This document shows, piece by piece, positions 3,516 through 6,484 of a stretch of DNA of 10,821 nucleotides. The translations under genes were made by a program, and so were the position numbers. This stretch comes from Pseudomonadota bacterium (GTDB taxonomy: Bacteria > SAR324 > NAC60-12): assembly GCA_014381795.1 (NCBI GenBank), contig JACNKY010000211.1, positions 1 to 10,821 on the forward strand, read 5' to 3'. The notes below the pieces were generated by a model that saw only the letters and a list, made by a program, of their open reading frames with translations, did not search any database and was not told the DNA's origin. Positions within the stretch are counted from its first letter, which is position 1. Each line of letters begins with the position of its first letter.

Positions 3516-3638
3516 ATAATAAAAGGAGGTTTCGGAACAGATATTTTTACGTATCCGCCCGAAATTTTAAGACTTGCTGAGAAGCAGGGCTTCAGATCCG
3601 GGTTTCCGGCTCAAAGTCCATGTGCAACTGACTCATGA
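3516..3638 (+). pseudogene. Possible gene remnant, no start codon
   Basis: Between a TAG at 3513-3515 and a TGA at 3636-3638 one plus-strand frame is open for 40 codons. Its first part reads GGFGTDIFTYPPEILRLAEK, which has a convincing protein-like pattern (turn, aromatic PP, amphipathic helix) but no ATG, GTG or TTG start. The last 15 codons overlap the 3' end of the 73-residue gene on the other strand and look random. It could be the surviving C-terminus of a decayed gene or chance. I do not recognise a family. Confidence 0.2.
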
Positions 3639-3813
3639 CTGTATCAGATGCTTCTGTATAGGAATCATCTAACGCAAGATCATTGCCCAACAAAAAACCG
3701 TTGTCATTGTATTCGATCTTGTTGATCACGCCACCTTTGTTAAGAAAGCGGGACATTGCATCACTGATTTCTTCGTGTGAAATTTCTTTTACTTTTTTAG
3801 CTATTCTAGCCAT
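3592..3813 (-). CDS. Small 73-residue protein with FLxxGGxI motif, CIRCE-linked
   Basis: The start is well supported: AGAGG stands 6 bases before the ATG. The N-terminus is basic (MARIAKKVK), followed by a predicted helix and the motif AMSRFLNKGGVINKIE (19-34); the C-terminal half is acidic (DLALDDSYTEASD). From memory, the pattern A-M-x-x-F-L-x-x-G-G-x-[IV]-x-x-[IV]-E resembles the conserved core of SutA, a small RNA-polymerase-binding regulator of slow-growing Pseudomonas, and other short proteins with the same motif. The similarity is short, so this is a lead and not an assignment. It lies downstream of a CIRCE operator and a strong promoter on the same strand, so it is probably heat- or stress-induced through HrcA. 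Confidence 0.75.
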   Translation of the reverse strand: MARIAKKVKEISHEEISDAMSRFLNKGGVINKIEYNDNGFLLGNDLALDDSYTEASDTVMSQLHMDFEPETRI

Positions 3814-3829
3814 ATTTTCCTCTTAATAA

Positions 3830-3942: not shown

Positions 3943-3969
3943 TTAGCACTCACTTTACAAGAGTGCTAG
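3943..3969. promoter_or_regulatory. CIRCE operator (HrcA binding site)
   Basis: TTAGCACTC at 3943-3951, exactly nine spacer bases, then GAGTGCTAG at 3961-3969. This matches the CIRCE consensus (TTAGCACTC-N9-GAGTGCTAA) at 17 of 18 arm positions. CIRCE is the binding site of HrcA, the repressor of groESL/dnaK class I heat-shock genes. The predicted -10 box on the minus strand lies inside the spacer, the usual repressing arrangement. The only gene it can serve at sensible distance is the minus-strand small-protein unit ending at 3592, because the gene to the right (4052-4369) is also on the minus strand and ends toward the operator. Confidence 0.93.
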
Positions 3970-3980
3970 TAGCTTGTCAA
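3952..3980 (-). promoter_or_regulatory. Sigma70 promoter overlapping CIRCE, with A/T upstream tract
   Basis: On the minus strand a perfect TTGACA (3980-3975) is followed after 17 bases by TAAAGT (3957-3952, 4 of 6 matches). Transcription would start near 3945. Directly upstream of the -35 box are A8 and T7 runs (3983-3997) and further AT-rich sequence that look like an UP element. The -10 box is enclosed by the CIRCE arms. The leader to the 73-residue gene is about 130 bases and contains the 32-codon frame. Confidence 0.8.
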
Positions 3981-4051
3981 GCTTTTTTTTAAAAAAAGGT
4001 TGATTTTTTCAATTTATTTTGTACAGGAGATTTTTTTAAGGAAGAATAAGC

Positions 4052-4436: not shown

Positions 4437-5732
4437 TTATATTTCATCTTCAGTAAAGCACAGCACTTCACGAATCTGCTTTGCACCGCAAAGCCACATG
4501 ACAAAGCGGTCAACTCCCATTGCCATTCCGGAACTTTCAGGCAGACCCTGCTCAAGGCATTTTAGGAACTTTTCATCTAAGGGCATAGAGCTGCGTCCCT
4601 CAGAACGCCTGTTTTTCAAATCCTGTTCAAAGCGCCGTCTTTGTTCGGAAGCATCTGTCAATTCTCCAAATCCATTTGCCAACTCCATACCGTTCACATA
4701 AAGTTCAACTCGTTCAGCAAACCCGGAACGTTGCGGACAATTCCGGGCTAGACTTGCCAGCGGCATCGGCCATTCATAAACAAAGACTGGAGTAGAACCG
4801 GAAAATTCCATTTCGAAATGATTCCAGAGCCGGAAAAATATTTGTTCATAAGCCAGTGACTCTGTAAGGTCTGACTGAGTTGAAAGATCAATGAGCAATT
4901 CATCATGTCCAGAAAGTTGTGCTTTTGCCCTTAATTGTGAGGCGGATTCGGTACCATCCAAAATGATGTTTAAATGTTTTTTAAATAAAGAACAGACTGT
5001 CACACGTGGCCAAGGCGGAAGTGGAATTTTTTCCGGAAAGTTTTCTGCTGCAATAGTTCCGCTGAGATGCATAACCATCTGTTCAATATCCAACATCAAA
5101 ACTTCTAGTGCTTCATTGGAACGATACCATTCGAGCATGGTAAATTCTGGATTGTGCAGGGGGCCGCTTTCTCCCTTGCGAAAACAACGTGCGAGCTGGT
5201 ATATTTTTTCAAAACCACCTGCCAGCAAACGTTTCATCTGAAATTCAGGTGAGGTAATCAGAAATCCAGAATCAGTTTTTATAGGTGAAAATTGTGACTC
5301 CGGACTGGGCGCGGAAACCATTAAAGGAGTTTCAGTTTCAATAAAATCATGCAGTTCAAACCACTCCCTGATACCGTGTATAATTTGCTGGCGAATCCGG
5401 AGAAGTTTCATCCTCGAAGGATTTATTGCCGGACGTCTCCAGCGCAGTAAGTCGCCTTCTGGCTCTAAATTGACAGCGGTTCCACCGGTTTTCAGGATTT
5501 CTACTTCACCATTTTCGCCAAGCTCAAATGATATTAATGAGCCTGCTGAAAGCTCTGTATCGCCTACATAGTTAAGCGTATACAAGTGGTCTTTAATTAA
5601 AACAAGAATGTTTTTATAATTTTCAGCTATTGACTCTTGCGACTTCTCATCCCTGCAAATAACTTCCAGGACGCGGCCGTGACAGTGCCCTGATAAAAGT
5701 GAGTTGCTAGAAGTCTGTGAAGAACTGGACAT
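4437..5732 (-). CDS. epmA: EF-P (R)-beta-lysine ligase EpmA (PoxA/GenX), with N-terminal extension
   Basis: EpmA is a class II lysyl-tRNA-synthetase paralogue that activates (R)-beta-lysine and attaches it to a lysine of EF-P. Seen: motif 1 FIETETPLM (130-138); TSPEFQMKRLL (160-170); motif 2 FRKGESGPLHNPEFTMLEW (184-202); the ELANGFGELTD block (350-360); and motif 3 GMAMGVDRFVM (402-412). Ala404 replaces the Gly of LysRS, as in E. coli EpmA. At 431 residues it is about 100 longer than E. coli EpmA (325). The extra N-terminal part (about 18-85) is rich in alternating hydrophobic residues (GRVLEV, NILVLIKDHLYTLNYVG, GSLISFELGENGEVEIL) and looks like a small beta-barrel, perhaps a reduced OB fold. 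No clear Shine-Dalgarno precedes the ATG. Its substrate gene, efp, lies 191 bases upstream on the same strand. Confidence 0.95.
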   Translation of the reverse strand: MSSSSQTSSNSLLSGHCHGRVLEVICRDEKSQESIAENYKNILVLIKDHLYTLNYVGDTELSAGSLISFELGENGEVEILKTGGTAVNLEPEGDLLRWRRPAINPSRMKLLRIRQQIIHGIREWFELHDFIETETPLMVSAPSPESQFSPIKTDSGFLITSPEFQMKRLLAGGFEKIYQLARCFRKGESGPLHNPEFTMLEWYRSNEALEVLMLDIEQMVMHLSGTIAAENFPEKIPLPPWPRVTVCSLFKKHLNIILDGTESASQLRAKAQLSGHDELLIDLSTQSDLTESLAYEQIFFRLWNHFEMEFSGSTPVFVYEWPMPLASLARNCPQRSGFAERVELYVNGMELANGFGELTDASEQRRRFEQDLKNRRSEGRSSMPLDEKFLKCLEQGLPESSGMAMGVDRFVMWLCGAKQIREVLCFTEDEI

Positions 5733-5923: not shown

Positions 5924-6484
5924 CTAGACTTTGACGCGTTCCGCATATTCACCGGTTCGAGTATCAATTCTAAGTTGATCTCCTTCATTGACGAATAAAG
6001 GCACATTTACACTGTAACCAGTAGACACTACAGCGGGTTTAGAAGCTCCTGTAACGGTGTTTCCTTTTTCACCGGGAGCAGTTTCTGTAACTTCCAGAAC
6101 AACGAAATTGGGCAAGCTTATTCCGATTGAACGGCCCTTGAAAAAACCAACTTCAATCAGCATATTTTCTGTCAAATAATTCGCCGCGTCACCGACAGCG
6201 TTGCTGTCCAGACTCACCTGTTCGTAGTTGTTGTTATCCATAAAATGGAAATCACCATCATTATACAAATACTGCATTTCTCGGTCTTCTGTATCAGCAG
6301 GTTTGAGTTTTTCTCCAGACTTGTATGTGCGGTCAAGTACTGCGCCGGTTATCATGTTACGGATTTTAGTCCGCGTAAATGCTGTTCCTTTACCAGGTTT
6401 AACAAACTGAAATTCCACAACAACAAATGGATCTCCATCCATCTCAAAACGCAGTCCTTTTCTAATATCGGATGTCTCGTACAC
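5924..6484 (-). CDS. efp: Translation elongation factor P
   Basis: EF-P binds between the ribosomal P and E sites and speeds peptide bond formation at consecutive prolines. The 186-residue length is standard for the three-domain protein. Seen: the KPGKGTAF loop at 29-36, whose Lys32 (E. coli Lys34) is the site of beta-lysylation, and the C-terminal signature from Lys149 to Gly168 (KPAVVSTGYSVNVPLFVNEG), which fits the family pattern at every fixed position. The loop is the lysine type, matching the EpmA encoded next door; EpmB (lysine 2,3-aminomutase) and EpmC are not in the window. The start codon is GTG (6484-6482), preceded by AAAGGA at good spacing; there is no nearby in-frame ATG. The leader of 250 bases contains repeats described separately. 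Confidence 0.98.
   Translation of the reverse strand: MYETSDIRKGLRFEMDGDPFVVVEFQFVKPGKGTAFTRTKIRNMITGAVLDRTYKSGEKLKPADTEDREMQYLYNDGDFHFMDNNNYEQVSLDSNAVGDAANYLTENMLIEVGFFKGRSIGISLPNFVVLEVTETAPGEKGNTVTGASKPAVVSTGYSVNVPLFVNEGDQLRIDTRTGEYAERVKV

Follow-up and report, generated by a model that had tools for sequence, protein, structure and literature searches.

HrcA regulons are usually viewed as regulons of chaperones and proteases, the classical HrcA/CIRCE regulon consisting of groESL and hrcA-grpE-dnaK. The release of chaperone promoters by HrcA under stress is established behaviour (PMC8762339). Two further accounts describe other targets. In Geobacter sulfurreducens a CIRCE site is predicted upstream of rpoH (PMC545781), and in Waddlia the gene wcw_0502 has a conserved upstream CIRCE and support from HrcA ChIP-qPCR (PMC12038028). 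SutA of Pseudomonas aeruginosa (PF20661; PDB 7f0r, 7xl3, 7xl4) is a small protein that binds RNA polymerase and stimulates the formation of open complexes. In its structural description the RBD alone gives binding, whereas an N-terminal domain of some 55 residues, rich in D/E, is needed for activation; the bound segment heads with its strand end to sigma 3.1, the sigma-S holoenzyme is favoured, and factors of this type are described from the Gammaproteobacteria, namely Pseudomonadales and Alteromonadales (PMC9300723). Levels of SutA are reported to rise in stationary phase and under anoxia (PMC8632087).

Here we analyse a stretch of 10,821 nucleotides from a SAR324 genome, called the window below, in which a CIRCE operator precedes a gene for a 73-residue protein. 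The reading we prefer, and consider reasonably probable, is that an HrcA-controlled heat-shock promoter drives a SutA-like protein that docks on RNA polymerase and alters initiation. The locus has the operator sequence, the spacing and the promoter overlap of the classical regulon, and hrcA is present in its genome; however, the classical targets are chaperones and proteases, and the target here is a putative polymerase-binding protein. As predicted for rpoH of G. sulfurreducens, HrcA would stand over a factor that acts on RNA polymerase, although the factor there is a sigma factor. Waddlia wcw_0502 is likewise a non-chaperone target of CIRCE, but it is a secretion effector and an unrelated protein. 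The product shares with SutA the register of helix, double glycine and strand, and both proteins are small and otherwise flexible. It differs in having a conserved acidic C-terminal tail instead of the D/E-rich N-terminal domain and in being encoded behind CIRCE; the conditions reported to raise SutA are stationary phase and anoxia. In the titles and abstracts listed from the open-licence literature we found no link of HrcA to a SutA-type protein, and in that literature no paper joining SAR324 with HrcA.

The operator and its place in the HrcA regulon

The operator was compared with the CIRCE consensus, the inverted repeat TTAGCACTC-N9-GAGTGCTAA. The earlier note had counted 17 consensus bases among the 18 arm positions, and this count was confirmed; in 200 dinucleotide-preserving shuffles of the window no CIRCE site at up to 3 mismatches appeared (0/200). 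The promoter arrangement described in that note also proved correct. The two hexamers on the minus strand are separated by a spacer of 17, the -10 hexamer forms the final six bases of the nine-base CIRCE spacer, the -35 hexamer lies just outside the operator, and an A/T tract follows upstream (Table 1). The operator overlaps the promoter of its target, as membership in the HrcA/CIRCE regulon requires. Support for the promoter comes from the conservation of the hexamers, since a bare match to the consensus is at chance level: between 3380 and 4400 there are 3 promoter-like sites, compared with a shuffle mean of 2.2 (sd 1.4). In the alignment of 15 orthologous loci, one of which (L012) carries Ns, both hexamers and the operator without its outermost base are invariant, as are parts of the upstream A tract.

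Table 1. Coordinates of the features of the locus in the window and, in the last three lines, CIRCE-led operons of relatives
Feature	Position or locus	Strand	Basis
CIRCE operator CTAGCACTC-N9-GAGTGCTAA (minus-strand reading)	3943..3969	.	1 mismatch in 18; in 15/15 same-genus orthologues
-35 hexamer TTGACA	3975..3980	-	promoter scan; identical in 15/15 loci
-10 hexamer TAAAGT, within CIRCE spacer	3952..3957	-	promoter scan; identical in 15/15 loci
A/T tract, possible UP-like element (inferred)	3983..3997	.	sequence; parts invariant in 15 loci
Untranslated leader, 129 bases, CIRCE to start codon	3814..3942	-	sequence poorly conserved; no Rfam match
AGAGG, likely ribosome-binding site (inferred)	3819..3823	-	sequence
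Gene of the SutA-like protein, 73 codons, stop included	3592..3813	-	codon substitution pattern; 15 orthologues; Pfam SutA-RBD E 4e-4
Residues 12-34, SutA-RBD-like segment of helix, GG and strand	3712..3780	-	Pfam match 12-34; predicted helix 13-25
Residues 35-73, conserved acidic tail, 9 D/E and 1 K/R in 39	3595..3711	-
Operon CIRCE-hsp20-sutA	L114, L115
Operon CIRCE-hsp20-hsp20-sutA-hsp20	L109
Apparent operon CIRCE-htrA-sutA-hsp20	L111 (G018 C65) 60-2481

The genome to which the window belongs, about 76% complete, contains hrcA (G000 C336, E 9.3e-62), and this gene itself lies behind CIRCE. With up to 3 mismatches allowed, this genome contains four CIRCE sites, and the three outside the locus precede clpB, hrcA-grpE and groES-groEL. 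HrcA was found in 51 of the 58 genomes searched and in 13 of the 17 same-genus genomes, where the misses are incomplete genomes; E. coli, among the controls, gave no hrcA hit. Orthologues of the 73-residue protein were present in 15 of these 17 genomes (G013 yielded a weak paralogue only and G015 no orthologue in this search). All 15 have CIRCE upstream, and so do the three nearest orthologues outside the genus. As the gene is CIRCE-linked across genus and family, as the other sites of its genome belong to chaperone genes and as hrcA is present, the 73-residue gene is a conserved predicted member of the HrcA regulon. This agrees with the earlier note, which had suggested a new regulon member and had asked whether relatives with the gene keep the operator and whether the genome has hrcA; neither of these two checks contradicted it. 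For the operator and for its conserved association with the gene, the evidence is as strong as sequence data allow.

The link extends beyond the genus. CIRCE-linked genes of SutA-like type occur in 27 of the 31 family genomes and in 7 of 8 genera; the family genomes lacking one are G013, G015, G021 and G024. In 14 family genomes outside the genus there were 42 SutA-RBD hits and 93 CIRCE sites. Eleven of the 42 hits, in 10 genomes, lie at most 1.8 kb downstream of CIRCE (0.12 expected), and 7 of these at most 300 bases from it (0.02 expected). These statistics treat the hits as independent, and the P values are too small because the genomes are related. The linked genes fall in six genera (g2, g3, g4, g5, g7, g8), and two more genomes of g2 have a linked orthologue, G030 and, with a CIRCE of 3 mismatches, G029. 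Operons that begin with CIRCE and include hsp20 or htrA contain the gene in g4, in g7 and at one g3 locus of two. A wider search of the family added no genome to the 31. Outside the family, in 21 genomes (G031-G051) whose lists were compared by eye, none of 33 SutA-RBD hits shares a stretch with CIRCE.

CIRCE sites were also mapped in one genome per genus for all eight genera of the family. They precede clpB, hrcA-grpE, groESL, hsp20, lon, an M48 peptidase gene, htrA, an ABC-ATPase/rpoN pair and SutA-like genes. Sites before lon (L146, L155) come from two genera; those before the M48 peptidase are in L135 and L152, and that before htrA is in L111. Pfam confirmed lon, M48, htrA and hsp20 behind CIRCE. 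The presence of lon and the M48 peptidase behind CIRCE points to a predicted enlarged HrcA regulon in the family. The view of the earlier note that CIRCE is nearly confined to chaperone genes was overstated, since here the operator also stands before lon, the M48 peptidase gene, htrA and lptB-rpoN, and rpoH and the gene of a secretion effector are among the published, partly predicted targets (PMC545781, PMC12038028).

Some further observations were made in this survey. In L130 (G020 C224, 1008-3299) and L142 (G022 C42, 2270-4500) CIRCE is followed by an lptB-like ABC-ATPase gene and then by rpoN, the gene of sigma-54, which was confirmed by Pfam in L130 and read by eye in L142. HrcA may thus reach sigma-54 in two genera. 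L132 (G020 C230) has a second SutA-like gene near CIRCE, in the same genome as L103. Small SutA-RBD-like proteins as such are frequent: at E<=0.001 they were found in 38 of 58 genomes, 18 of which have a match over the cut-off, and in these 58 genomes most of them are not CIRCE-linked.

Resemblance of the product to SutA

The 73-residue ORF is coding. Among 15 orthologues (105 pairs), single-base codon differences were synonymous in 1951 cases and non-synonymous in 641, and differences were distributed over the three codon positions as 987/303/2774.

Only one Pfam family, SutA-RBD (PF20661), matched the protein at E<=1. The match has an E value of 4e-4 and a score of 20.1 bits, compared with a curated cut-off of 29.3, which the relative L114 passes with 32 bits. 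Among the 120 of 264 matches listed, PF20661 is precomputed in 23 homologues. In the close-family set A2, whose 18 proteins were collected through their homology to the window protein without use of the Pfam model, all 18 match SutA-RBD at E<=0.1 (best 7.5e-8), and the second-best family is matched by 3 of them. When 10 of the 18 were reversed as a control, none matched SutA-RBD (0/10). The ten CIRCE-linked proteins from other genera also match without exception (E 7.5e-8 to 1.9e-4), one of them above the cut-off, but 8 of the 10 had originally been found with the SutA-RBD model itself. Against the PDB the A2 profile reached SutA with an E value of 0.48, amid unrelated chains, with a designed protein ranking above it (0.08) and eS19 in the same range, and a search with one paralogue, L074, as query did not retrieve SutA. 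With the broader profile A3, SutA was the top match (E 1.3e-5, the second at 0.014); this result is partly circular because A3 includes proteins found by the SutA-RBD model.

The register of the A3-PDB alignment was used to compare the ten SutA interface residues named by He et al. 2022 (PMC9300723). Seven are identical in the window protein (SutA K60, M71, F74, L75, G78, G79, I84), two are replaced conservatively (L67 by I16, V81 by I30) and one is changed, R64 to H13, with R occurring in several CIRCE-linked relatives. On the polymerase side, the beta subunit of the same genome has S and E at the polar-partner positions S59 and E73, where E. coli has S and Q; these kept partners of the beta protrusion are weak, permissive evidence because the region is widely conserved. 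The structure prediction (mean pLDDT 62.5, pTM 0.28; pLDDT about 81-84 for residues 11-30) shows little beyond a single confident helix at residues 13-25. A single helix in an otherwise flexible chain, as modelled, fits the described make-up of SutA.

The segments around the domain differ from SutA. The RBD is preceded by 11 residues with 1 D/E and 4 K/R, hence there is no D/E-rich N-terminal domain, which is why we do not file the protein as SutA. Residues 35-51, in the tail, are the best-conserved segment within the genus (mean 0.94). Over the SutA-like proteins as a whole, at least three types of tail were distinguished by eye in alignment A3.

In the best-supported reading of these sequence comparisons, which rests on a short domain, the product is a SutA-like polymerase-binding protein. 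Of the proposal in the earlier note, a small protein acting on transcription or translation, the transcription part has become plausible by the resemblance to SutA-RBD.

It is possible, if unlikely, that HrcA controls the gene and that the product nevertheless binds no RNA polymerase. The helix-GG-strand motif would then be generic, and the protein some other stress protein, for example a ribosome-associated factor or an adaptor that serves a chaperone or a protease. The sub-threshold Pfam score, the missing N-terminal domain and the A2 profile, which scores eS19 and the designed protein about like SutA, are compatible with this, and the hsp20 and htrA operons of some relatives fit a proteostasis adaptor too. 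Yet SutA-RBD is the sole Pfam family matched consistently in the close family, the interface residues are kept in register and the reversed control was negative, which speaks against this alternative.

A binder of the beta protrusion could also act as a brake, which we regard as unlikely. A protein without the wedge loop and the acidic N-terminus of SutA would occupy the site, its acidic tail would compete with promoter DNA or sigma, and transcription would be lowered in stress. This possibility follows from the division of labour described for SutA (PMC9300723), where the N-terminal domain is needed for activation and the RBD alone binds; the window protein lacks that domain and has an acidic tail behind the RBD. 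However, two relatives from genus g2 (L105, L113) do have D/E-rich residues ahead of the RBD.

A possible path from HrcA to RNA polymerase

If the product is the SutA-like protein that we prefer, the following mechanism can be proposed. Operator, promoter, their conservation and the company in the regulon suggest how the gene would be controlled. In the unstressed cell, HrcA bound to CIRCE would cover the -10 box and the start region and transcription would be blocked, a step that we infer from the overlap of operator and promoter and from the known action of HrcA. Stress, presumably heat, would inactivate HrcA and free the promoter along with those of clpB, groESL and hrcA-grpE. The coding evidence and the resemblance to SutA suggest what the product would then do. 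Like SutA, it would attach to the beta protrusion of RNA polymerase, using the segment of helix, GG and strand. From there the acidic C-terminal tail would point to sigma region 3, since in the SutA complex the end of the strand runs to sigma 3.1 (PMC9300723). Under stress the tail may change how the main sigma factor initiates, and it could help or hinder.

The sigma factors of the lineage bear on this proposal. RpoH was not found over the family cut-off in any of the 58 genomes of the SAR324 class (0/58), nor in the 19 more complete ones (0/19), while the controls gave 2/14. Each of the 17 same-genus genomes has two sigma-70-type matches. SutA is described as favouring sigma-S, whereas the genome of the window shows only two sigma-70-type frames, one RpoD-sized with 576 residues and one of 254 residues. 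Because no RpoH over the cut-off was found in the SAR324-class genomes searched, a larger share of the heat-shock response may fall to HrcA here than in RpoH-bearing relatives.

A broader and doubtful extension is that in SAR324, where RpoH is not recognisable, the release of HrcA makes SutA-type proteins that reprogram the housekeeping polymerase in stress, with one anchor on the polymerase and at least three kinds of tail. If this were true, a relay from repressor to polymerase would replace the sigma switch. A conserved link of HrcA to a putative polymerase-binding protein would couple protein-folding stress directly to the transcription machine, and this in a lineage without recognisable RpoH. 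The SutA-type factor would then extend beyond the Gammaproteobacteria, to another lineage and another stress.

The leader and the neighbouring genes

The leader between CIRCE and the start codon varies in length from 108 to 151 bases in the 15 orthologous loci. The earlier note had considered a companion peptide of 32 residues and a tiny operon. The 39-codon frame that contains this peptide is intact in 2 of the 15 loci only, in the window and in the nearest relative (G003). The companion was rejected on this ground, and since the frame is broken in the other 13 loci an operon is unsupported. The 73-codon gene stands alone, with a TerB-like gene downstream in convergent orientation. No terminator-like site was found downstream of it. 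An RNA element in the leader found no support either, as the leader is unconserved and the Rfam search of the window matched 0 families at gathering scores. A divergent target on the plus strand was discarded because the genes flanking that side, DUF6122 and a lysyl-tRNA-synthetase-like (epmA-like) gene, are on the minus strand like the gene itself. Most same-genus loci retain this gene order over the length that their contigs cover.

We therefore think it very improbable that the true target of the operator is a leader peptide, a non-coding RNA or an opposite-strand gene, with the 73-residue gene incidental. A leader of 129 bases with a 39-codon frame in the window would leave room for this, but apart from the broken frame, the missing Rfam match and the strand of the upstream genes, the promoter hexamers are conserved for the minus strand only and CIRCE goes with SutA-like genes into other contexts. 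A chance palindrome or an assembly artefact is refuted by conservation, the arrangement being shared by 15 same-genus genomes, and by the shuffles.

Two other regions of the window may be mentioned. On the plus strand, 1294-2388 encodes a 364-residue protein with a Gly/Arg/Ser-rich C-terminal part and no confident Pfam match. On the minus strand, the lysyl-tRNA-synthetase-like (EpmA-like) gene at 4437-5732 lies beside an elongation factor P-like gene at 5924-6484, both named from the sequence by eye.
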